NCBI RefSeq assembly: GCF_016632335.1
Contig: NZ_JAEPBG010000006.1
Span: forward strand, 124,001-188,000
Length of the DNA: 64,000 nucleotides
Source: Noviherbaspirillum pedocola
GTDB lineage: Bacteria > Pseudomonadota > Gammaproteobacteria > Burkholderiales > Burkholderiaceae_D
Direction: 5' to 3'
Shown: piece after piece, positions 2,155 to 52,978 of the stretch
Layout: each line of letters starts with the position of its first letter
Position numbering within the stretch: position 1 is the stretch's first letter
Program-made: the position numbers and the translations under genes
Notes under the pieces: model-generated
The model's database searches: none
What the model was told of the DNA's origin: nothing
Seen by the model: the letters and a program-made list of their open reading frames with translations, nothing else

Positions 2155-4965
<2,811 letters not shown>

Positions 4966-6414: not shown

Positions 6415-6595
6415 GGTTCACCCGCAAAGCACCACCCTCCCTGCAATCTTATAGAGAGTCATACCAGCGAAATCTTATCTCCCGCTGGCATGCCAAGACA
6501 CTCTGTCGTCTTTCCCGTACCCGTACCGGAAAGCCGTCACACCAACGGTCTCCGTTTTCGAACGCCGCTACGCGGCATCTATGGAGACGCTTGAA
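6415..6595 (+). promoter_or_regulatory. Structured leader before small membrane gene
   Basis: This non-coding stretch, after the module at 6388-6414, contains CCAGCG...CGCTGG (6464-6488), CTTTCC...GGAAAG (6510-6533), AACGG-TCT-CCGTT (6544-6556) and GCCGC-TAC-GCGGC (6564-6576). The last lies 19 bases before the start codon. No ORF in it looks real. Confidence 0.5.
6564..6576 (+). repeat. Start-proximal GCCGC-TAC-GCGGC hairpin
   Basis: A perfect 5-bp stem with a TAC loop, 19 bases upstream of the ATG at 6596. It is one copy of the recurrent short palindrome family. Confidence 0.75.
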
Positions 6596-6823
6596 ATGCA
6601 AACCGAAACCAACGCACGGAGCATAGGCGCAGCTGCTGCAGCAACTTTCGCGGCTTTCTTCATCTGCGGTCTGCTCCAGTCCTTCGGCTTCACGCCGAAG
6701 ATGCAATCGATCGGCACCTTCGTATCGTTCCTCGTTTGGTATGGCATGGTCCATACCGCGACGATGGCTGTACAGAAGCGCCGTCTGGCTCATGCGCATG
6801 TGCGCGTGGCCAGAGCAAGATAG
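6596..6823 (+). CDS. Small two-helix membrane protein, unknown function
   Basis: The 75-residue product is mainly two hydrophobic segments (about residues 9-31 and 36-59) and a basic Arg/His-rich tail, so it is probably an inner-membrane hairpin protein. ATG 6596 is preferred over 6581 because GGAG sits 9 bases upstream of it. No family is recognised. It begins the series of small genes with hairpin leaders. Confidence 0.55.
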   Translation: MQTETNARSIGAAAAATFAAFFICGLLQSFGFTPKMQSIGTFVSFLVWYGMVHTATMAVQKRRLAHAHVRVARAR

Positions 6824-6932
6824 TCCGTTCCGGCGTTGCGTATGCAGCGTCGGATCCCCTCCAAATCGACATGCTTTACCCGACGCTGTGGCGCCCGGTA
6901 AGGCTGAAACAGCCTTCTTCCTCTTTTCAACC

Positions 6933-6945
6933 ACCGCTACGCGGT
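6933..6945 (+). repeat. Start-proximal ACCGC-TAC-GCGGT hairpin
   Basis: A perfect 5-bp stem with TAC loop, 15 bases before the ATG at 6961. The flanking base pair is changed on both sides relative to other copies (A/T for G/C), a compensatory change that supports pairing. AAGGCTG-AAA-CAGCCTT at 6900-6916 is another stem just upstream. Confidence 0.75.
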
Positions 6946-6960
6946 AAAGAGGAGCTCGTT

Positions 6961-7380
6961 ATGAAAAGCCAACAGTCGCAAAATCACGGCCTGATGTACT
7001 ACGTGGCGTATGGTTTTCTGTTCATCCCAATCACGGTTTGCACTGCAGGTCCGAGACTGGTATGGATGGCTGGCTATACGCTGATGAAGTGGCTGGGCAT
7101 TGCGCTGTACATGACATGGAAGCACACGATCTGGAGCTTGCTGCGCTTGACCGTCAGTAAAATCGTCATCCCGGCGATCAAGCATGGCGCGACCGGTTCT
7201 CTGCAAGCGATCAAGGCTTTCGGCCCTGTCAGTCTGAAAGCTGCAAGCGATATCGGAAGCTCTACCAAGCAACGCTTCGTCCGCAAGGAAGTAGTGTTGC
7301 CCACGCCGTCGATTTTCCAAGGTGGCAGCGTGGCACGCGCTCGTGATTTCGACCTCGGCGCACTTAACAAGCAGTTCTGA
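6961..7380 (+). CDS. Putative membrane protein, unknown function
   Basis: A 139-residue product starts after GAGGAGCTCGTT. It has two hydrophobic stretches (about residues 11-32 and 36-62, separated by a short Gly/Arg turn). The C-terminal half is basic, ends in LNKQF and is probably cytoplasmic. The family is not recognised. It may be cotranscribed with the preceding small membrane gene (137-base gap with two hairpins). Confidence 0.6.
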   Translation: MKSQQSQNHGLMYYVAYGFLFIPITVCTAGPRLVWMAGYTLMKWLGIALYMTWKHTIWSLLRLTVSKIVIPAIKHGATGSLQAIKAFGPVSLKAASDIGSSTKQRFVRKEVVLPTPSIFQGGSVARARDFDLGALNKQF

Positions 7381-29957: not shown

Positions 29958-31712
29958 ATGACCGAAGCAATCCTCGAACGGCCGGTATCCGCTCAATCCG
30001 AACAGCCCAAGCAAGCGCAGCAAGCTGAGCAAGCAACCTTCCTTCCCCTGTCGTCGCTGCGCGTCAAGCCGGGCCACAACCCGCGCACCTACTTCGACGC
30101 CAAGGCGCAGGCAGATTTCGTCGAAGACATCCGCGAAAACGGCATCCTGCAGTCGATCCTGGTGCGTCCGGTCGAAGACCACTACCAGATCGTTGCCGGC
30201 GAGCGCCGCTACCGTGCCGCTCTCGAAGCGCATGGACCGGAATATCAGGTCCCGGCGCTGATCCGCCAGATGACCGACGAACAGGCCGATCTGTTCGCGC
30301 TCATGGAAAACCTCCAGCGCGAAGGCATGTCCCCGATCGAGGAAGCCGCTCAGGCCGCCAAGATCCTCGGACGGCTCAAAGGCGACCGCGAGGAAGCCGC
30401 ACGGCTACTGAAATGGTCGCTGCCTGTCCTCAACAGCCGCCTGGCGCTGCTGCAGTGCTCGGACGCGGTGCGTACCGCCCTGAACGAGCGCAAGCTGAAG
30501 TTGGGTCATGCCGAGCTGCTTGCCGCCCTTGCCAAGCCCAAGCAGGACATCCTGCTGCCGAAGATCCTGCAGCACAACATCAGCGTGCAGATCCTGAAGG
30601 CGGAAATCGACAAGGCTGCCTGCAAGCTCGATGCAGCCGTGTTCGACAAAACCGATTGCGCCGGATGCCCGCACAATTCCAGCGTTCAGGGCACGATGTT
30701 TTCGGAGGCGATCTCCGGGGGCCACTGCACGAACAAGGAATGCTACGGCGAGAAGACCGAGGCCAAAATCAATCAGGTCGCGGAAGGCCTGAAAGATGAC
30801 TACCCGACGATCCGCATCGTGCGCGTTGGCGACAACGAAACGCGCACGAAGCTGGAAGCAGCGGGTAACAAGGGCGTCGGCGAGGAACAGGCGCAAGCCT
30901 GCCGCGCCTGTGCCAACTTCGGCGCCGCGGTGTCCGCGTTGCCGGGTTCGGAGTCGCAGGTGTTCCATAGCCAGTGCTTCGACACCGCCTGCAACAGCAA
31001 GAAGATTGCCACGCGCATCAAGGGCGAGCAGGAAGCCGAAGCGGCCACCAAGGCGCAACAGGCAATCGCCCAGGCCGGCGCTCAACCCGCCGCGCAGGGT
31101 GCAACCACGGCAACGCCCGCAACAGCCAGCGCAAAGCCGGCTGAAAAGGCAGTCACTTCGGTTTCGGAAACGGACCGCGTGAAGGCCTATCGCGAGAACG
31201 TGTGGCGTGTGGCCATGACGAAAGAGATCGCCAACGAACCCGTTCTGTCGCGGCAATACCTGATCGCGCTGTGCATGAATGGCTGCGCGCGTAATATTAG
31301 CGACACCAAGCTGAAAACGGTCTTCGGCAAGATGACGAAGACCGATGCGACGAAGTATGACCTTGGCGAACAGGTCAAGTCGGTGCAGGAGCAGGAAGCG
31401 CAGGTGCAACAGGGCCTGCTGACCATGCTGGCGGCAACGGCAATGGAAGCGCTGGAGCTGCACAAGCTCAAGCAGCTGGCGACGTTCCACCAGCTCGACC
31501 TCACCAAGCACTGGAAGCTCGACAAGGAGCTTCTCGATATTCTGACGAAGTCGGAGATCAAGGTGCTGGCTACCGAGGTCGGCCTCGATAAGGCCGCTGG
31601 CGACAAGTTCAACAAGTTGTTCAGCGAGAAGAAGGATGATCTGATCAAGGCGCTGCTTGCGGTGGAAGGCTTCAACTATTCCGCCGTCATCCCGAAAGTC
31701 ATGCAGTACTGA
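29958..31712 (+). CDS. PRTRC-system ParB-family protein
   Basis: The first gene of the PRTRC (ParB-related, ThiF-related cassette). The 584-residue protein has a ParB/Srx-like N-terminal domain (about 25-120) with the signature NPR..FD and the phosphate-binding GERRYRA (near 85). A helix-turn-helix region follows. Cysteine clusters (CAGCPHNSS near 237-240, CRACANF near 315-318) suggest zinc binding. A long Ala-rich linker precedes a helical C-terminus. Size and extra domains distinguish it from the chromosome-partition ParB, and no ParA is encoded nearby. The start is ATG 29958 with TTGGAGAAAAGA. It may act as a CTPase/DNA clamp or nuclease; its actual role is unknown. Confidence 0.88.
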   Translation: MTEAILERPVSAQSEQPKQAQQAEQATFLPLSSLRVKPGHNPRTYFDAKAQADFVEDIRENGILQSILVRPVEDHYQIVAGERRYRAALEAHGPEYQVPALIRQMTDEQADLFALMENLQREGMSPIEEAAQAAKILGRLKGDREEAARLLKWSLPVLNSRLALLQCSDAVRTALNERKLKLGHAELLAALAKPKQDILLPKILQHNISVQILKAEIDKAACKLDAAVFDKTDCAGCPHNSSVQGTMFSEAISGGHCTNKECYGEKTEAKINQVAEGLKDDYPTIRIVRVGDNETRTKLEAAGNKGVGEEQAQACRACANFGAAVSALPGSESQVFHSQCFDTACNSKKIATRIKGEQEAEAATKAQQAIAQAGAQPAAQGATTATPATASAKPAEKAVTSVSETDRVKAYRENVWRVAMTKEIANEPVLSRQYLIALCMNGCARNISDTKLKTVFGKMTKTDATKYDLGEQVKSVQEQEAQVQQGLLTMLAATAMEALELHKLKQLATFHQLDLTKHWKLDKELLDILTKSEIKVLATEVGLDKAAGDKFNKLFSEKKDDLIKALLAVEGFNYSAVIPKVMQY

Positions 31713-31722
31713 CGTTGACGCT

Positions 31723-31750
31723 CCCCTGGCAACAGGGGGGCGGCTTTTTA
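31723..31750 (+). terminator. GNRA-capped terminator between parB and PRTRC E
   Basis: CCCCTG-GCAA-CAGGGG (31723-31738) is followed by GGCGGC and TTTTT. It would reduce expression of the downstream PRTRC genes relative to parB. Confidence 0.65.
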
Positions 31751-31822
31751 CCGCGATCATCATGGTTCACCCATGCCACCGGCATAGGCGAGCTGTTCCC
31801 CGACGCTCCGATGTTTCTCAAC

Positions 31823-31835
31823 GCCGCACAGCGGC
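31823..31835 (+). repeat. Start-proximal GCCGC-ACA-GCGGC hairpin
   Basis: A perfect 5-bp stem with ACA loop, 20 bases before ATG 31856. Confidence 0.72.
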
Positions 31836-31855
31836 ACCAATCGGAGACCTTCACA

Positions 31856-32380
31856 ATGTTTTCAGCACTCAAAGAACTGCTCGGCGACTGCGGCGAGCTC
31901 AAACTGATCCTGAAGGCGGATGGCGACAAGATGAAAGTCTTCGTCTGCCCGCCCGCTGCAGCCGCCGGCAAAGGCGTCGAAGCCGCCCTGTCGCGCACCC
32001 TGCCCCTCATCGCCACACCCGAGGAACTCGATGCCGGCTTCGTGGGCGCCGTGGCCAGCTTCCGAGCCAGCCGCAAATCGCTCGCGGAACAGGTCGAGGC
32101 AACGTCGACGATCCTCAAGGCAGCAGAGAAGGACCAGGCCAAGAAGGCAACGCGCCCGGCCGCTAAGTCTGTGAAAGGCGCAAGCAGCAAGCCGGACATC
32201 GATGTCCCGCTTCCGGCCAACGCCACGGATGATGACCATGGCGACGACGATACATCTTCGGACGACGATGCAGACGCTTCCAATGGCGCGGCATCCGGTT
32301 CCGCAACCGTCACGCTGCCCGCATCGTCCGAACCCACCTCAAACGAACAAGCCGGCTTTGATCTCGGCGCTCTGCTCTAA
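31856..32380 (+). CDS. PRTRC system protein E
   Basis: A 174-residue protein in the position of PRTRC protein E, between ParB and protein C. The N-terminal 85 residues (MFSALKELLGDCGELKLILK, then LPLIATPEELDAGFVGAV) match what I know of that family. The C-terminal half is a Lys/Ala/Asp/Ser-rich disordered tail. Function is unknown. GGAG lies 9-10 bases before the chosen ATG. Identification leans on cassette order as well as sequence. Confidence 0.78.
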   Translation: MFSALKELLGDCGELKLILKADGDKMKVFVCPPAAAAGKGVEAALSRTLPLIATPEELDAGFVGAVASFRASRKSLAEQVEATSTILKAAEKDQAKKATRPAAKSVKGASSKPDIDVPLPANATDDDHGDDDTSSDDDADASNGAASGSATVTLPASSEPTSNEQAGFDLGALL

Positions 32381-32391
32381 AGGAGACAATC

Positions 32392-32601
32392 ATGGCAATC
32401 GAAGTGATGCAACTCAACCGCACCTTTTCTTTCAACGGCGTGGACCTGCCCGACCCTGGCCAGGAGTTCACGCCGGAAGAGGTCAAGGAAGTTTACGCAA
32501 ACCAGTATCCCGATCTGCTTACCGCAGTCATCGACGGCCCGAAAATCGTCGGCGACAAGGAAGCCTATACCTTCGTGCGCAACGTCGGCACCAAGGGATA
32601 G
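32392..32601 (+). CDS. PRTRC system protein C (ubiquitin-like, ends in Gly)
   Basis: A 69-residue protein with AAAGGAGACAATC before the ATG. Its pattern (MxxExMxLxRxFxFxGVxLPDPG, YANQYPDLLTA) fits PRTRC protein C. Length and strand pattern suit a beta-grasp ubiquitin-like fold, and the chain ends in VGTKG with a C-terminal Gly69, as expected of a protein activated by an E1 enzyme. An E1-like (ThiF), an E2-like (B) and a JAMM peptidase (A) are encoded in the same operon. Conjugation to targets is inference. Confidence 0.82.
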   Translation: MAIEVMQLNRTFSFNGVDLPDPGQEFTPEEVKEVYANQYPDLLTAVIDGPKIVGDKEAYTFVRNVGTKG

Positions 32602-32604
32602 CAA

Positions 32605-32805
32605 ATGGAAAGGGAAAAGCTGATGGCAGTTTTGGACGGCAAGTTGCCGGCCAAGACCTTCGCCGGCAGAAACGTCACGATGGTGGTGTACGACAACGGC
32701 GAAATGAAGCAGATCGCCAGCGTCATCCAACGCCTGGCCGCCAAGCCGATCAAGAGGCAGCGGCCCCTGCAAATCCGATCAAGCATGCTGCCGCCCTGCT
32801 TCTAG
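32605..32805 (+). CDS. Small hypothetical protein within PRTRC cassette
   Basis: A 66-residue frame starting 3 bases after protein C (in-frame ATGs at 32605 and 32623). It has a short strand-rich centre (TFAGRNVTMVVYDNGEMK) and a basic tail. It is not one of the named PRTRC components I recognise. The tight spacing makes translation plausible. Confidence 0.5.
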   Translation: MEREKLMAVLDGKLPAKTFAGRNVTMVVYDNGEMKQIASVIQRLAAKPIKRQRPLQIRSSMLPPCF

Positions 32806-32822
32806 GCGCTTGCTGACTTACC

Positions 32823-32864
32823 ACAACCCCTTCGGGGGTTGTCTCATGTTTGCGAGCATGAGAC
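32823..32864 (+). promoter_or_regulatory. Two adjacent strong hairpins before PRTRC F
   Basis: ACAACCCC-TTCG-GGGGTTGT (32823-32842, UUCG loop) is followed without gap by GTCTCATG...CATGAGAC (32841-32864). The two stems share two bases, so they compete at the junction. Neither has a T run. Confidence 0.6.
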
Positions 32865-32892
32865 AGCCCACCCCGCTCCTTGGTTTATGTAC

Positions 32893-32903
32893 CCGCTACG
32901 CGG
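32893..32903 (+). repeat. Start-proximal CCGC-TAC-GCGG hairpin
   Basis: A 4-bp stem with TAC loop, 22 bases before ATG 32926 and just upstream of the CAGGAG site. Confidence 0.65.
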
Positions 32904-32925
32904 AAACCATCCACAGGAGTGCATC

Positions 32926-34017
32926 ATGCAAACAGCTATCGCCGATCGGCCATCAGGCCAACTCGGCTTTCAACTTCCCTCGCTGCACATCGACATTCCC
33001 GTTCGTACCGTTTTGATCGAGCCGGCGTTTCAGGACGCCGATCCGATGGCCAAGGCGCTTGTTGAACTGGGCGTCATCGACCCGGAAACGATCAGCGACA
33101 GCGCCGAAACGCCCCGCGACGTTCTGAAGCAGGGTTTAGCAGCATGGATTGAGAAGCGCATCGGCAGACTGGAGCGCCTCCATTTAACGTTCGGCATCCG
33201 GTCGCCCGGACAAGCGAACCTTTTTGTGGACACGCTGCAGGACGCCGACTGCAAACTGGAGTACACCCGCCCCGTGCTGTGCATCGGACAAACGGGTGAA
33301 GAGCATCCCTACCTGATCGATGAAGCCGCGGAACTGCTTGAAACGTGTCACGCCGGCTTGTTCAGCGTCATCTGGAAGACCGTTTACGCCGCCCAAGCGC
33401 CAACGGTACCGGTGCGCACCCCGGAAGAGTTCTTCTGCCACTTTTGCCATAACTGGTACGAGTGCGACGAAAGCGAGCTCGAAACGCCCGAGGGCGTCGA
33501 GCAGGCCCTCGAATCGCTGAAGGAGCGTTTTGAAGACGCGATCGAGAAGGACTACTACCCGGAAAATGCGCGGCGGGTATTCGGAATGGATTATCTGCGC
33601 CGAACGAACAGCATGGCTGAGGATGCGCTAAGCGATGAGGAGATCCTGTCTCGCGCCTATGCGACCGGAAACGCCTATGCATGCAAGGTAATCGACGCTG
33701 CGGCCCGCCTGCGGGAGAGCATCGATGCCGCCGATGCCGTCGAAGCAAGTCTGCCTGACATGACGGATATCCATGGCGGCTGGCCTGTTCATCAAGGCTC
33801 GACGCTGGTTTTCCAGGACCACGAGTTCACCTGGCAGATCCTCGACGACGAAATCGAGATGGCTTACCAAGCCGGCGACAACACTGACCTGATGGGACTG
33901 CGCGAGTTGCCTGCCGACCGCGAAGCCCTGAACACATTCTTCACCAAGCTCGATATCGCCCTGGTCGTTCTGCGGCGCTTCGACGCGCTTCTCAAACTTA
34001 TTTCCCAACCACACTGA
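32926..34017 (+). CDS. PRTRC system protein F
   Basis: A 363-residue acidic protein between proteins C and B, the usual place of PRTRC protein F. ATG 32926 follows CACAGGAGTGCATC; the frame opens 87 bases earlier inside the hairpin leader. It contains a CHFC pair (near 172-175) and long helical stretches. No enzymatic motif is seen and the function is unknown. The identification uses cassette order plus overall size and composition. Confidence 0.75.
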   Translation: MQTAIADRPSGQLGFQLPSLHIDIPVRTVLIEPAFQDADPMAKALVELGVIDPETISDSAETPRDVLKQGLAAWIEKRIGRLERLHLTFGIRSPGQANLFVDTLQDADCKLEYTRPVLCIGQTGEEHPYLIDEAAELLETCHAGLFSVIWKTVYAAQAPTVPVRTPEEFFCHFCHNWYECDESELETPEGVEQALESLKERFEDAIEKDYYPENARRVFGMDYLRRTNSMAEDALSDEEILSRAYATGNAYACKVIDAAARLRESIDAADAVEASLPDMTDIHGGWPVHQGSTLVFQDHEFTWQILDDEIEMAYQAGDNTDLMGLRELPADREALNTFFTKLDIALVVLRRFDALLKLISQPH

Positions 34018-34028
34018 AGGAGACTGCC

Positions 34029-34784
34029 ATGCAATTCGACTTGGAAGACGGCGCCGTTGATGCGACCCTCACCCGCGCAATCCTGCTTTACGAAACCAAA
34101 GCCAACTACGCGCAGTCAGCCACCACGGTGCTCGCGACAGTTCATGATGTTGCTGATGTTGGCACCGCGGCACGGCCGAACGTGCAGATCATGCCGGGCT
34201 TGCCGATCACGAAGGACGCGCTGGTTCATGCGCTCGGTACCATGGCCGAGGAATACCTGGTCTGTACCGACCTGCTGCCCGAGCGCCTGCTAGGGTTCTC
34301 GCCCAAGCACCTGTTCTGGTGGCGGCCTGCTGGCAAATCACGCGTCTTTTTCCGCTGCAAGGAACTGGGCCAGCGCGCGGCGATCGTGCCGCATCCGCCA
34401 CTGGCGTTCATCGTGTCAGGCAACGCCTGGTACGTTTTCGCTCTCGCGGAAAACAAGCGCCCCACGCTGGAAACGGAGCTGTTTCATGCCCCGTATTTCA
34501 ATGTGTACGACACCGGCAGCATCTGCATCGGATCGGCGAACATCCCCGACAAACTGCAGCCGGGGACTCTCCCGCTGTGGGAATCGGCGTTCTTCGATTC
34601 CGAGTTCACCCATGTCAACGGCTCGGTGCGCAAGGTCGCGCATGAACGCGGCGAATACGCGTTCTGGAAAGAGATGCTCGACGGCGCCTACGACGAATTT
34701 CCAACCGATCTGCTCGTGCCGCAGAAGAAGACCGTCAAAAATCTTCTGGACGCGGTTGCGGCACGAGGAGGCGCACGTGGATAA
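34029..34784 (+). CDS. PRTRC system protein B (E2-like fold candidate)
   Basis: A 251-residue protein, 11 bases after F. The segment PHPPLAFIVSGNAWYVFAL (His122-Pro-Pro) followed by APYFNVYDTGSICIGSA, with Cys166, parallels the HPN-like and catalytic-Cys layout of prokaryotic E2-like (Prok-E2 family D) proteins. That family includes PRTRC protein B. A ubiquitin-conjugating-like role with protein C as cargo is inferred. Its stop overlaps the GTG start of protein A by 8 bases, so translation is coupled. Confidence 0.8.
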   Translation: MQFDLEDGAVDATLTRAILLYETKANYAQSATTVLATVHDVADVGTAARPNVQIMPGLPITKDALVHALGTMAEEYLVCTDLLPERLLGFSPKHLFWWRPAGKSRVFFRCKELGQRAAIVPHPPLAFIVSGNAWYVFALAENKRPTLETELFHAPYFNVYDTGSICIGSANIPDKLQPGTLPLWESAFFDSEFTHVNGSVRKVAHERGEYAFWKEMLDGAYDEFPTDLLVPQKKTVKNLLDAVAARGGARG

Positions 34785-35379
34785 GCGAGACGTGGCAATG
34801 CAGGCGTCGATGCCCTCCATGATGGTGCCGCGCTATGGAAAGCTTCAAGCGGCCGAGACTTTCGGCGAGCGCTTGTTGATCGCATCCAACGGCGTGTTCC
34901 TTGAGGTGAACCGCGTCTGGGCCCGGTTTATCCGTCGCGTTTCCTCGTCCATCGCCACGCCGCTTCCCTACGGGGAGCAGCAGTCGACGACGGAATGGAA
35001 GATCGAAGGAATACCGAAGCATCTGCTGCGGCAGTTCAACGACATGGCGCGTGCGCAGTCACACCGGGAAATCGGCGGCTGCATCATCTGGAATGAAAAA
35101 ACCGGCTACCGCCTGTCTCCCGTAATCACCCTTGAATCCAGTGGTGCGCATCTGCGCTACCAGCCTCCGCCAATGGAAGCCGGTGACCATCTGATCATTG
35201 ACTGCCATTCGCACGCGCGTTTCGGCGCCTGCTTTTCCAAAACAGACGATGCGGACGACGCATGGAGCGTGAAGCTGGCCTATGTCGTGGGCAACTGCGA
35301 CCGGCAAGAGCAAAGCGTAGCCATGCGCCTGTGCATCAAGGGCATTTTCGAAACAACCCAACTTGAGGAGAAATCATGA
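34777..35379 (+). CDS. PRTRC system protein A (JAMM/MPN metallopeptidase)
   Basis: The 200-residue product begins at GTG 34777, chosen for GAGGAGG 6 bases upstream. Residues E98 (HREIGG), H144-S-H146, S154 and D157 form a complete JAMM zinc-protease signature (E ... HxH-x7-S-x2-D). The domain should therefore be catalytically competent. In ubiquitin-like systems such enzymes process or remove the modifier. It is fused to an extra N-terminal region of about 90 residues. Its last codons overlap the ThiF-like gene (ATGA). Confidence 0.87.
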   Translation: MDKRDVAMQASMPSMMVPRYGKLQAAETFGERLLIASNGVFLEVNRVWARFIRRVSSSIATPLPYGEQQSTTEWKIEGIPKHLLRQFNDMARAQSHREIGGCIIWNEKTGYRLSPVITLESSGAHLRYQPPPMEAGDHLIIDCHSHARFGACFSKTDDADDAWSVKLAYVVGNCDRQEQSVAMRLCIKGIFETTQLEEKS

Positions 35380-36284
35380 AAGTCATTCACAAAATCGATC
35401 CAAACTTGCTTCGGCGTAGTGTCAACGTGACCGTGGTCGGCGCCGGCGGAACAGGCTCTGCCCTGCTGCCGCGTCTCATGCAACTGCACCATGCGTTGAT
35501 CGCGCTTGGGCATCCCGGTGGTCTGGATGTCTGCGTCTATGACGGTGACACCGTTTCCGAAGCCAACATCGGCCGCCAAGGGTTCTTCCCGAGCGACGTC
35601 GGCCAATACAAGGCTACCGTGCTCGTGAACCGGCTCAATATGTGCTGGGGAACGCAATGGGAAGCCTATCCCCAACGCATCAACAAGTCCGACCGCATCC
35701 GCACCGACATCATCATCGGCTGTGTGGACACGCGGAAGGCGCGCGCGGCAATCCTGGGATGCGTGGCCAACGCGCATGTCTATTACCTCGACTGCGGCAA
35801 TGGTCAGAACTCCGGCCAAGTCGTCATCGGGGAAATCGGCGGGCCCAGCACGATGAAACGCTGCGATCGTCTGCCGTCAGTGGCGGACCTGTTTCCCGAG
35901 GCGGTAAATCCCGATCTGGACGCAACCGACGACGCACCGAGCTGCTCGGTCGCAGAAGCTCTCGAAAAGCAAAGCCTGGTCGTGAACATGGCCATGGCGA
36001 CCGCAGCCTTCAACCTGCTGTGGACGCTATTCCGTGAAGGCGGCCTTAACTACTCGGGCCAGTTCATCAACCTGAAAACTGGCATGACCGCACCGATCCG
36101 GATGGATACGGCGGTCTGGGAACGCTTGGGATACAAAGCGCCCGTGCCGAAGCAGCGTGTGCGCAGGAAGGTGCTGAAGGTGGCTGAAGTAGGTACAGCC
36201 CCGGAAGGCGCCGGGCCGACTGAAGCCGCTGTCACAAATGAAGATGCAGTCCCAGCACCAGAAGAAATGGCGCTGGCTGCTTGA
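35376..36284 (+). CDS. PRTRC system ThiF-family E1-like adenylyltransferase
   Basis: This 302-residue E1-like enzyme has the nucleotide-binding loop GAGGTG (22-27), D56-G-D58, N64-x2-R67-Q68, K79 and D118. A conserved Cys190 lies in PSCSVAEALEKQ, the position used for thioester formation in E1 enzymes. All adenylation residues are present. It should adenylate a C-terminal glycine, and PRTRC protein C is the obvious substrate. A Thr/Glu/Pro-rich tail follows residue 265. It is the last gene of the cassette, closed by a terminator. Confidence 0.9.
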   Translation: MKVIHKIDPNLLRRSVNVTVVGAGGTGSALLPRLMQLHHALIALGHPGGLDVCVYDGDTVSEANIGRQGFFPSDVGQYKATVLVNRLNMCWGTQWEAYPQRINKSDRIRTDIIIGCVDTRKARAAILGCVANAHVYYLDCGNGQNSGQVVIGEIGGPSTMKRCDRLPSVADLFPEAVNPDLDATDDAPSCSVAEALEKQSLVVNMAMATAAFNLLWTLFREGGLNYSGQFINLKTGMTAPIRMDTAVWERLGYKAPVPKQRVRRKVLKVAEVGTAPEGAGPTEAAVTNEDAVPAPEEMALAA

Positions 36285-36499: not shown

Positions 36500-37540
36500 A
36501 TGATGATGCAACCGGAACACGAAGATCCAAGCAAGGAAGTTCGAACGATAATTCAGAAAGATAATAGTGGCAAAATCTTAATCACAACGGTTTCGAGTAA
36601 ACCGGAAGATTGGACTTGGAACGGAATAAAAGAATTTGGAAAGAATTTTAAAGAGGGTATCGCGTATTTGATTAGGAACGCGAAAGGACATATTGAGGTA
36701 AAAAAGAAATTAAAAACCACATTGGAAAATAAGGTACTCACTGACGCGGTACTCAAGCATGTCGGAATAGACCCCACAAAAATTACGCCCAACTTATGGA
36801 CATCTCTACCACCCGAAGTGGCTGACGCGGTTAAAAAGATTTTCGCTGAGTCATGTGATAATGCCAAGAATCAGGTGGTTACCTCGAGTGAAGGAAAGCT
36901 CTGCGGTACGATTTTCAATCGTAGCGGCGAAATTAAATCGGGGGGGTGGACCATCAGGTATGGCAACGTTGAATTCTCATCAGTCGCAAAAGAAAAGCCC
37001 ACGGGAACAGACATAGCAATTTTGCTTCATGTAACCGATGAATATGGCGCTGCCTCTATCAAAACAATTTGGCTTCAAGCCAAAAAGGATGTGTCGGGGA
37101 AGACCCCTCTATCAGATCTTAAAGATTTGAAGGGGCAGTTCGATGATATGCGGAAGATTACAAGCGAATCTTTTCCATTGATTATCACCCCAAGAAATGT
37201 GTATGTACCAGAGGATCTTTCGGGTAACGCGATACATGAATTTCCAGATTTTATGGCTGACACTGTGCGATGCAAGCATGGCGATCAGACAAGAGAAATG
37301 TATGCAGAATCCATTGATAGAAAGACGATATTCGAAGTCGCGATAAAAAAAGGGACGCCTGCACCGAAATCCAAAAAGCACAAAGCGCCGGCAGTCAAAA
37401 AAACGGCTGCGAAAAAAGTGGCTTCCAAGGCAGCCGCTGCCAAAAAGCCCAGCACTAATGAGGCGGCTGCAAAAAAAACGGCAGCAAAGAAAACCGCTGC
37501 AACCAAAACGGCAGAAGGAAAATCTGTGCCTAAAAAATAA
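36500..37540 (+). CDS. Putative PD-(D/E)XK nuclease-like protein with Lys/Ala-rich tail, AT-rich
   Basis: A 346-residue protein with base composition and codon use clearly more AT-rich than its neighbours, implying recent acquisition. Residues E165, D171 and Q193-x-K195 (EKPTGTD ... IWLQAKK) match the E...TG(A/T)D...(L)QAKK pattern of PD-(D/E)XK-type nuclease domains. The C-terminal 60 residues are KKTAAKK-type repeats like histone H1 tails and probably bind DNA. Three in-frame ATGs occur at 36500, 36503 and 36506, with no good ribosome site. It could be a defence nuclease, toxin or nucleoid protein; no partner is evident. Confidence 0.65.
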   Translation: MMMQPEHEDPSKEVRTIIQKDNSGKILITTVSSKPEDWTWNGIKEFGKNFKEGIAYLIRNAKGHIEVKKKLKTTLENKVLTDAVLKHVGIDPTKITPNLWTSLPPEVADAVKKIFAESCDNAKNQVVTSSEGKLCGTIFNRSGEIKSGGWTIRYGNVEFSSVAKEKPTGTDIAILLHVTDEYGAASIKTIWLQAKKDVSGKTPLSDLKDLKGQFDDMRKITSESFPLIITPRNVYVPEDLSGNAIHEFPDFMADTVRCKHGDQTREMYAESIDRKTIFEVAIKKGTPAPKSKKHKAPAVKKTAAKKVASKAAAAKKPSTNEAAAKKTAAKKTAATKTAEGKSVPKK

Positions 37541-46743: not shown

Positions 46744-47739
46744 ATGAGTGAGTCCGGCACGTACAAGGCCGCGGTACTGATGCTCGCCTTGGGAGAGGAA
46801 CAGGCGGCCGAAGTGCTCAAGCACCTGGGACCGAGGGAAGTTCAGAAGCTCGGCGGCACGATGTCCACCATGAAACCGCTGCAATCTACCGAACTCAATA
46901 CCGTCCTGCATGAATTTAACCGGAAATCCGGCGAAACCACGTCATTCGGCATCGACAACGACGAATACATCCGCAGCGTCATGACGGCCGCTCTGGGCGA
47001 CGACAAGGCGTCGACGCTGCTGAACCGCATCATCGGCCAGCGTGATGCCTCCGGCATCGAGCAGCTGAAATGGATGGACTCGCAGTCGGTGGCCGACCTG
47101 ATCTACAACGAGCATCCGCAGATCATCGCAACCATCCTGGTGCACCTGGAACGCGTGCATGCATGCGAGGTGTTGAACTGCTTCGTCGAGCGCTTGCGCC
47201 ACGATGTGATGCTGCGCATTGCCACGCTGGACGGCGTACAGCCGGCCGCGCTGCGCGAACTGAACGAGGTGCTTACTCGCCTCTTGTCCGGCAACGAGAG
47301 CGTCAACAAGAAGCCCATGGGCGGCATACGGACCGCGGCCGAGATTATGAACTTTTTCACCGGGGACACGGAAATGGCTGTCGTATCCCATCTGCGCGCT
47401 TACGATGAAACGATGGCGCAGGAGATCCTCGATGAGATGTTCGTGTTCGAGAACATCTTCGATATCGATGACCGCGGCATCCAGACCATCCTGAAGGAAG
47501 TGCAGTCCGAATCCCTGATCATTGCGCTGAAGGGAACGTCGGACCAGATGCGCGAGAAGATTTTCAAGAACATGTCGCAGCGCGCGGCGCAGATGATGCG
47601 CGAAGACCTCGAAGCCAAAGGCCCGGTCCGTCTATCCGAAGTCGAGGAAAAGCAGAAGGAAATCCTGCAGATCGTGCGACGCTTGGCGGACGAAAAGCAG
47701 ATCCAGCTCGGCTCGAAAGGCGAAGACGCTTACGTCTGA
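46744..47739 (+). CDS. fliG: Flagellar motor switch protein FliG (solitary copy)
   Basis: A 331-residue protein, exactly the usual FliG length, with N-terminal, middle (EHPQ motif: YNEHPQIIATILVHLE) and C-terminal domains. The rotor charged helix is present (REKIFKNMSQRAAQMMREDLEAKGPVRLSEVE), including the Arg, acidic pair and Arg that face MotA. It should be a functional torque-generating rotor subunit or a decoy. No other flagellar structural gene is present. The only flagellum-related neighbours are the FlhD/FlhC-like genes 35 kb away. The ribosome site is weak (GCAGGGCAGCG). Confidence 0.92.
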   Translation: MSESGTYKAAVLMLALGEEQAAEVLKHLGPREVQKLGGTMSTMKPLQSTELNTVLHEFNRKSGETTSFGIDNDEYIRSVMTAALGDDKASTLLNRIIGQRDASGIEQLKWMDSQSVADLIYNEHPQIIATILVHLERVHACEVLNCFVERLRHDVMLRIATLDGVQPAALRELNEVLTRLLSGNESVNKKPMGGIRTAAEIMNFFTGDTEMAVVSHLRAYDETMAQEILDEMFVFENIFDIDDRGIQTILKEVQSESLIIALKGTSDQMREKIFKNMSQRAAQMMREDLEAKGPVRLSEVEEKQKEILQIVRRLADEKQIQLGSKGEDAYV

Positions 47740-51739: not shown

Positions 51740-52978
51740 TCAGGTCACCGCCGGGGGCTCGCTGGGCACGGGCGTCGGCGGCGGGACGGGAGCGGCTTCG
51801 TACATCTGCACGCGGTTTCTGCCGCCGCGCTTGGCCTGGTAGAGCGCGTCATCGGCACGCTTCAGCATGCGCTCAACGGTATCCTGCACTGCGATTTTTT
51901 CCGTGACACCCACGGAGATCGTGAAGCGCGGAACATCCTTCTCCGCGGTCTCCTCGATGCGTTTGCGCAGGCTCTCCGCGACGATCGTGGCGCCGCGCCC
52001 GTCGGAGTTCGGCAGCGCGATGACGAATTCCTCGCCGCCCATGCGCGCCACGATATCGCTCTCGCGCAGGTTTTCGTTCAGGATGCGGGCCAGCAGCCGC
52101 AACGCATCGTCGCCCTTGTCGTGGCCGAACGTGTCGTTGATTTTCTTGAAATGATCGATGTCGAGCATGATCACGGAGAAGGCATGGTTGTAGCGGCGCG
52201 AAGCCGACTGCACCCGGGTCGCAAAATCGAAGAAGGCGCGACGGTTCAACAGGCCCGTGAGCGGATCGCGCGTGGCATGCTCGTACAGGCGGGTGGCGTA
52301 CAGGACGATGCGTCGCACCAGAGGTCGGAAGATGAACACGCCTTCGAGCGCCAGCGTCAGCAGCAGGATGACGACAACGCATTTCTGGATGGCGCGCAGG
52401 CGCTCGATGCGGGCGTTGGCCTCCATTGCGATATCCCGCGCCACGGTCTCGGCAAGATTGAGCATGTTCTTGCGCGCCTCGGTGCGCAGGTACAGCAACG
52501 CTTCCGGGTCCTTGGTGCTGGCGACCTTCTCGGCCGCGGCGATGAACTGGCGGGTTCGGCGGTCGAAGTCCTGGCTCGTGCCGTAGTAGACGTCGCGCAC
52601 ACTCGTAGACAGCTCGAAGAACGTGTCAGAGTTGAAGCCGCCGGTCATCAGGAACGTATGGTTCCTTCGGAAACTCTTGATGGCGTCTTCCAGGCGCTCG
52701 CGTGCTTCCGGATCACCGCCCTCGACATACTCCATGGCCGAGTAGGTAATGCGCTGGGGGTACATCGACTGCTGGCCGGCCACGTGCAGGACATTGGCGG
52801 AATTGAGCTGCTCGTTGATGACGCTGTCGAGCACCAGGTGCGCGGCCACGGAAAGAAAGGCAACCAGCGTCAGGGCAAGAAGATACGCGGAGGTCATCCG
52901 CGTGCCGAGCCGGACATCCGGCAAGTCCTCTGTCAGATCTTCTGAAAACGACCGCAGCAGTGATCCCAGTCTCAACAT
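51740..52978 (-). CDS. Membrane diguanylate cyclase (PilJ-type sensor plus GGDEF)
   Basis: The 412-residue protein has two membrane helices (about 30-50 and 200-220) flanking a periplasmic PilJ-type four-helix sensor (HVAGQQSMYPQRITYSA). A cytoplasmic GGDEF domain follows, with active-site GGEEF (about 312) and an inhibitory RxxD site (RESD) five residues earlier. It should synthesise c-di-GMP with product inhibition, linking an envelope signal to motility or biofilm. It is 15 bases downstream of the cold-shock-domain gene on the same strand. GAGGATGT precedes the ATG. Confidence 0.88.
   Translation of the reverse strand: MLRLGSLLRSFSEDLTEDLPDVRLGTRMTSAYLLALTLVAFLSVAAHLVLDSVINEQLNSANVLHVAGQQSMYPQRITYSAMEYVEGGDPEARERLEDAIKSFRRNHTFLMTGGFNSDTFFELSTSVRDVYYGTSQDFDRRTRQFIAAAEKVASTKDPEALLYLRTEARKNMLNLAETVARDIAMEANARIERLRAIQKCVVVILLLTLALEGVFIFRPLVRRIVLYATRLYEHATRDPLTGLLNRRAFFDFATRVQSASRRYNHAFSVIMLDIDHFKKINDTFGHDKGDDALRLLARILNENLRESDIVARMGGEEFVIALPNSDGRGATIVAESLRKRIEETAEKDVPRFTISVGVTEKIAVQDTVERMLKRADDALYQAKRGGRNRVQMYEAAPVPPPTPVPSEPPAVT

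Follow-up and report, generated by a model that had tools for sequence, protein, structure and literature searches.

Among described prokaryotic systems that resemble the ubiquitin (Ub) pathway, operon type 6d of Iyer 2006 (PMC1779556) comprises a small Ub-like protein (Ubl) with a highly conserved C-terminal Gly, an E2-like protein, an E1-like protein, a JAB protein and an alpha-helical protein, and the parts of that paper covered here predict Ub-like transfer for such systems. The same gene set makes up the NCBIfam PRTRC cassette, a copy of which occupies positions 29958–36284 of a 64,000-nucleotide stretch of Noviherbaspirillum pedocola DNA (contig NZ_JAEPBG010000006.1, positions 124,001–188,000; 'the window' refers to this whole stretch). 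The Ub-like reading of the cassette is therefore not new, being already contained in the description of type 6d, and the locus belongs to a known, predicted kind of system; no function was reported for PRTRC in the literature searched, judged by titles and abstract openings. What is added here is an overlooked small gene, which we call S, and a comparative result that has no counterpart in the literature searched. In our sample the Ubl, PRTRC protein C, is encoded with residues beyond its Gly in many cassettes that carry a JAMM peptidase gene, and in none of those classed as JAMM-less.

Type II CBASS, with its Cap2 and Cap3 proteins, uses E1-E2 and JAMM chemistry; its E1 and E2 are fused, and it is not known to have a separate Ubl. 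The PRTRC E1-like protein, ThiF, resembles this system in that its profile matches Cap2 chains, but E1 and E2 are separate genes in PRTRC. Bil (BilABCD) shares a Ubl, an E2, a JAMM protein and an E1 with the cassette, and its JAMM protein BilC trims BilA to expose the Gly (PMC11354881), a precedent for the processing proposed below. BilA has two Ub-like domains (PMC11354881), whereas C of the window has a single Prok_Ub domain in 69 aa. Bil is counted as an immune pathway (PMC13373217), and the passages covered name four genes for it, among which ParB, E, F and S do not figure.

All seven PRTRC models (ParB, E, C, F, B, A and ThiF) exceeded their NCBIfam curated cut-offs in a single run. Pfam was concordant (Prok_Ub, Prok-E2_D, DUF2016 plus Prok-JAB, ThiF and alpha-hel2), although the Pfam PRTRC_E model fell under its cut-off on E of the window. 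This bears out the cassette proposed by a first-pass annotation of the sequence, whose gene list lacked one open reading frame (ORF), S, between C and F. The features are as follows:

29958–31712, plus strand: PRTRC ParB-family protein, ParB_N and HTH_ParB (TIGR03734 7.1e-213, PF02195, PF17762).
31856–32380, plus strand: PRTRC protein E, C-terminal tip ..FDLGALL (TIGR03741 5.7e-24, scanned from 31715; start codon from the sequence).
32392–32601, plus strand: PRTRC protein C, Ub-like (Prok_Ub), 69 aa, final residue Gly69 (PF14454 1.5e-25, TIGR03738 3.1e-27).
32605–32805, plus strand: small protein S (our name), 66 aa, C-terminus SSMLPPCF (ORF by place; AAGGGA 5' of the ATG).
32834–32872, no strand assigned: strong stem-loop between S and F (fold z -4.26 for 32800–32925).
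32926–34017, plus strand: PRTRC protein F, alpha-hel2 (TIGR03742 2.6e-21, PF14456 2e-08, scanned from 32839; start from the sequence).
34029–34784, plus strand: PRTRC protein B, E2-like (Prok-E2_D), Cys166 (PF14460 9.5e-47, TIGR03737 1.5e-67).
34777–35379, plus strand: PRTRC protein A, DUF2016 and JAMM peptidase, GTG start (PF09436 1.9e-26, PF14464 1.4e-15; NCBIfam PRTRC A model 8.7e-56).
35376–36284, plus strand: PRTRC ThiF, E1-like, Cys190 (TIGR03736 4.1e-97; family profile matches solved E1 enzymes).

Overlapping starts had been described for the whole run of genes; they occur at B/A (8 nt) and A/ThiF (4 nt), and the remaining intergenic gaps measure 3–143 nt. As far as the sequence tells, the cassette is intact in the window.

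The characters of type 6d given in the covered parts of Iyer 2006 (PMC1779556) recur here protein by protein. The conserved terminal Gly of the Ubl corresponds to Gly69, which ends C in the motif ..GTKG, a single Gly after Lys, and is conserved in 41/41 and 26/26 sequences of two alignments. An E2-like protein with a conserved Cys and a downstream His corresponds to B, in which Cys166 is present in 135/135 cassettes and His195 in 116/135. The HPP sequence first picked out alongside Cys166 was rejected as an E2 motif because its His is not conserved, only its first Pro being so. A JAB with an extra N-terminal alpha+beta domain corresponds to A, in which DUF2016 (residues 2–74) precedes Prok-JAB and is, from its place, presumably that domain; the JAMM signature that had been read in A is present, with E98, H144, H146 and D157 found in 81/81 cassettes with JAMM and S154 in 80/81. 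Finally, an E1-like protein with no rhodanese domain and an alpha-helical partner corresponds to ThiF, whose sole Pfam domain above cut-off is the ThiF domain, and to F with its alpha-hel2 match. Cys190 of ThiF is present in 133/133 rows with letters at that site, so that all three residues on which the first-pass annotation hung its proposal (Gly69, Cys166 and Cys190) are conserved among relatives. Among solved structures, E1 enzymes and Cap2 chains are hit by the profile of ThiF (best 4.5e-9), which makes the E1 link firm at the level of profiles. The same parts of Iyer 2006 (PMC1779556) do not mention, for type 6d, S, C-S fusions, the relation between C tails and JAMM, JAMM-less forms or phage cassettes, and they describe the JAB as always fused or adjacent, whereas JAMM-less cassettes occur here.

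The comparison set consists of 135 cassettes with B, ThiF and C (77 from phages and 58 from plasmids and genomes), out of 144 loci on plasmids, in genomes and in phage contigs; these rows represent 132 distinct places, L177, L178 and L179 being the same contigs as L157, L150 and L160. Nine loci were dropped as having no ThiF/B or no C (L086, L089, L101, L139, L151, L152, L155, L156 and L176), and L055, whose stretch opens at the first position of its record and has A but lacks C, B and ThiF, never entered. Plasmid cassettes were gathered by tblastn, the queries being C, A and a B protein of Bacteroidota (217, 120 and 83 matching records, respectively), as 29 annotated regions picked for diversity; genome cassettes came from PF14460 searches of 398, 399, 4, 248 and 199 genomes plus further scans; and phage contigs were drawn from IMG/VR through alignments to ThiF, as the best 80 of 137 and then 9 more, 4 of them new loci. 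A search of viral sequences that used only ThiF of the window gave no match, and a scan of genome contigs gave a single locus only. Genes were located by custom profiles of C, B, A, ThiF, ParB, E and F. The C-terminal Gly of C was located by a pattern that looks for a G preceded by K, R, L or N close to where the residue should fall; in 11 rows (L065, L087, L088, L090–L096 and L140) it was assigned manually. The statement that tail-less C ends in Gly (75/75) is therefore true by construction, unlike the finding that no residue follows the Gly in 54/54 JAMM-less cassettes.

Sixty of the 135 cassettes have both JAMM and a C tail, 21 have JAMM with no tail, 54 have neither, and none has a tail with no JAMM, where JAMM absence means no A-profile match in the sequence stretch examined and where 10 of the 54 JAMM-less cassettes have a B-ThiF spacing above 150 nt (up to 543). 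In the same order, the counts are 60/21/0/51 over the distinct places, 46/17/0/48 with one row per ThiF group below 90% identity (Fisher 4e-17) and 23/12/0/36 with one row per group below 70% (Fisher 3e-10), kinship being ignored in both tests. At least 7 changes of JAMM state and 10 of tail state are required on a quickly built ThiF tree, and at least 8 and 11 on a B tree. Making the gain and loss of tails dependent on JAMM gives a better fit than an independent model on both the ThiF tree (likelihood ratio 23.5, p 8e-6) and the B tree (18.8, p 8e-5), in tests of 111 rows made with our own code, a flat root prior and rates at their bounds. JAMM and a tailed C also occur together outside the set, in the isolated Burkholderia gladioli phage BgVeeders33 (L181, OK665841.1, 16779–32945), whose E-C-S-F-B-A-ThiF genes are annotated as hypothetical except for ThiF. 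Such cassette phages are rare among phage records, the ThiF of L010 having 8 matches in 50,697 of them, one of which covers 80% or more of that protein. The pattern strongly suggests processing by a JAMM peptidase that would expose the Gly of C, by analogy with ubiquitin processing.

The tails fall into 21 of 1–9 residues, of variable sequence, and 39 of 48–97 residues, and the first residue after the Gly is Ala in 35 of the 60. Among the long tails, 24 lie at the position of S with no separate S gene, and 15 are other cargo followed by a separate S. A profile built from separate S proteins only recognised 18 of the 24 S-position tails at E<=0.0012, in three of which 24 an ORF in another frame had first been discarded by hand, and it matched none of the 15 other-cargo tails and none of 39 reversed tails. 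Both states are found in related phages: L125 encodes C, a stop and then S, and in L124 ..GTKG runs directly into S, with 0/500 shuffles as similar as the two S sequences. The tail/S pairs L107/L099, L038/L057 and L065/L063 are likewise similar (0/500 shuffles as good for each), but the L056 tail and the L060 S are not (232/500). The long tails with no separate S that the profile missed are those of L038, L053, L056, L065, L097 and L140; of these, the tails of L038 and L065 each show a pairwise match to the S of a relative, and there is also a match between those of L053 and L056. Six of the 15 other-cargo tails were scanned with Pfam, none reaching a cut-off. In eukaryotic ubiquitin-ribosomal protein fusions, a small protein is attached to the Gly of a Ubl and the two are freed by a peptidase; the C-S fusions resemble them in the pairing of Ubl and small protein, and differ in that S has no family match.

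In the window, the S ORF starts 3 nt after the C stop with the AAGGGA stretch directly 5' of its ATG, and its product matches nothing in Pfam, NCBIfam, PHROG or PADLOC; PADLOC and PHROGs scans of the cassette proteins as a whole yielded little. An S-like ORF lies 3' of C in 109 of the 135 cassettes, a long tail takes its place in 24, and L146 and L175 have neither. These counts follow manual removal of ORF candidates in 12 loci: L021, L036, L039, L040, L051, L059, L085, L109 and L112 each lost one of two, and L038, L107 and L140, which were then counted as fused, lost their sole candidate. A bare ORF proves little, since 41% of shuffles give one. The case for S as a gene instead rests on its place, on purifying selection (dN/dS 0.14–0.73 in the 18 measurable of 19 pairs) and on a C-terminal Pro/hydrophobic motif found in 80/111 against 3.6% of shuffles, by a pattern written after the termini had been seen. 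The sequences do not establish S as a single family: training rows below 40% identity recognise only 24/109 held-out S proteins (2/1090 shuffles as control), and the window's own S goes unrecognised (E 0.41). In a model of the L124 fusion, S is predicted to form a small number of helices, and its C-terminal tail is modelled with very low confidence.

Taken with the invariant residues, these results make it likely, in our judgement, that PRTRC constitutes a self-sufficient Ub-like protein system carried by mobile elements, in which C would be a modifier acting through its C-terminal Gly. ThiF would adenylate this Gly and then hold C on Cys190, B would accept C on Cys166 and pass it to a target, and A, where present, would cut C directly after the Gly and possibly also remove C from the target. 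Such a cut would allow C to be encoded with a tail, be it a few residues, the downstream S or other small cargo, and where A is missing C would have to be encoded ending in Gly. The cassette of the window is one of the 21 with JAMM and no tail; its C already ends at the Gly as encoded and requires no A for its production, so that A would act on conjugates or stay in reserve. Of the system as first proposed, a Gly-terminal Ub-like C activated by ThiF, with an E2-like B and the JAMM protein A, is supported by the invariant residues and the tail rule, and the tie to ParB is weakened, as described below.

Several points weigh against this reading. The tail rule strongly supports exposure of the Gly, which does not distinguish conjugation from sulfur transfer. 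In the cassettes classed as JAMM-less a JAMM gene may lie elsewhere in the genome, and a test on independent pairs found 1 and 5 supported pairs, too few for significance. The structural predictions are also of limited help. The model of C from the homologue L124 is only moderate (pLDDT 81–85 in blocks over residues 11–60, 67 overall; pTM 0.40), and none of its 75 Foldseek matches reached E<=0.001; the rows include ubiquitin or diubiquitin, PB1, FERM and Atg12 chains amid mostly unrelated ones. Foldseek with B of the window gave no significant match, to an E2 or otherwise (a TSG101 UEV chain ranked 44), the B profile matched no solved chain, and profile or single-sequence searches of solved structures with C and B gave nothing useful. 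On the other side, the L124 model has the order beta-beta-alpha-(alpha)-beta-beta, which fits the beta-grasp order expected of C at first pass even though the fold search returned no significant match, and the B model (pLDDT 88.6, pTM 0.76) runs from strands through the Cys166 loop to helices, an order that we take to be that of E2 enzymes. A beta-grasp fold for C and an E2 fold for B are thus plausible from the models.

The tail rule fits equally well a sulfur carrier, since a JAB could, according to the parts of Iyer 2006 (PMC1779556) covered, free ThiS/MoaD from fusions, and sulfur carriers may be matured likewise. C would then be ThiS/MoaD-like, adenylated by ThiF and converted to a thiocarboxylate at its Gly, with A only maturing C and B serving a sulfur transfer or cofactor step; the ThiF-type E1 and the single Gly after Lys at the end of C agree with this. 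We nevertheless regard it as unlikely, given that ThiF has no rhodanese domain, that the B Cys is invariant (135/135) and that the annotated neighbourhoods hold no constant sulfur or cofactor gene, a PAPS reductase-like gene appearing in L013 and L018 only.

The first-pass annotation had tied the system to ParB, perhaps as its substrate, and a plasmid partition module, in which C, B and A would modify ParB to control segregation or copy number, would suit a window cassette that opens with ParB and the presence of ParB in 36/58 plasmid and genome cassettes. Among phage cassettes ParB is found in 1/77 at E 1e-10 and in three at E 1e-3, two of which (L146 and L175) have it behind ThiF; the cassettes of L011 (Bacteroidota) and L020 (Deinococcus) showed no ParB alongside, some absences being stretches that start just before E (e.g. 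L019, L043 and L064). As nearly all phage cassettes lack it, ParB is ruled out as a general necessary partner, and a partition module is in our view very improbable. A DnaB-like helicase, by contrast with other cassettes, in none of which it occurs, is present in the stretch of 34/77 phage cassettes (31/74 distinct), L113 being an example with DnaB and a Lin1244-type protein. ParB-less cassettes in phage replication regions point, on gene content, from partition towards replication.

The carriage of the cassette by phage contigs themselves, 34 of the 77 with this helicase, also argues against an anti-phage defence like CBASS, Bil or Bub, which has in its favour enzymes of the same kinds and weak matches of ThiF to PADLOC E1-E2 models (best 1.3e-4). 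The other 8 window proteins scanned had no PADLOC match, and no effector gene was recognised in the annotated neighbourhoods, where no search was aimed at effectors; defence, too, seems to us very improbable.

A more specific version of the Ub-like reading concerns the replication fork. E proteins end in a hydrophobic tip (..LDLF, ..SLF, ..DLASLL) in 55/69 cassettes with JAMM and in 7/53 without, against 1–2% of shuffles, a count over the 122 E proteins found with a pattern written after the termini had been seen. The tip resembles sliding-clamp binding motifs and may be one. A dnaN gene lies beside the cassette in L039, L058 and L097 and, by annotation, in L056, with weaker matches in L132, L164 and L180, and ssb follows ThiF in L053 and L056. 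From the tip counts, the dnaN neighbours and the DnaB-like helicase of phage stretches, one may speculate that PRTRC serves the plasmid or phage replication fork, with a C-S polyprotein split by JAMM in places, the E tip docking on the sliding clamp and C attached to clamp or fork proteins; we hold this to be distinctly unlikely as it stands.

Turning to the surroundings, the window is part of contig C56 in a 7.2 Mb genome of 80 contigs, and contig C7 of the same genome carries another PRTRC cassette, which has diverged and includes a ParB, a JAMM gene and an S-like ORF of its own (G000:C7:95000-107000, L036). Elsewhere, Deinococcus proteolyticus pDEIPR02 (L064) has two PRTRC ThiF genes (3830–4528 and 6544–7242) with different neighbours, and a cassette is also present on pMOL28 of Cupriavidus metallidurans CH34. 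In the S/F stem-loop region 0/200 shuffles were equally stable, and the inverted repeat CAACCCCTTCGGGGGTTG lies near the stem-loop at 32824–32841, its single occurrence in the window; the stem-loop could be an attenuator or a processing site. The PRTRC naming also includes a protein D; among 12 other window ORFs scanned with NCBIfam (10 + 2) none was named PRTRC D, no search having been aimed at it. The window probably belongs to a conjugative element, as its genes include a MobH-like relaxase, which scores under its NCBIfam cut-off, and a TraD coupling protein, which exceeds its own. A FliG-like flagellar gene (46744–47739) and a diguanylate cyclase gene (51740–52978) share the window with these conjugation genes. 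A gene at 36500–37540, 3' of ThiF, encodes a functionally uncharacterised protein of 346 aa, whose C-terminus is rich in Lys and Ala and resembles histone H1, with matches below cut-offs.

For the PRTRC family, the tail rule turns what was conjecture, a C that functions via its Gly and is matured by the JAMM protein, into a pattern across plasmids, genomes and phage contigs. The natural C-S fusions are ready substrates that make the prediction of Iyer 2006 (PMC1779556) directly testable, and S is worth including in any reconstitution. Were the replication-fork version to prove true, the cassette would be a bacterial counterpart of PCNA ubiquitination.

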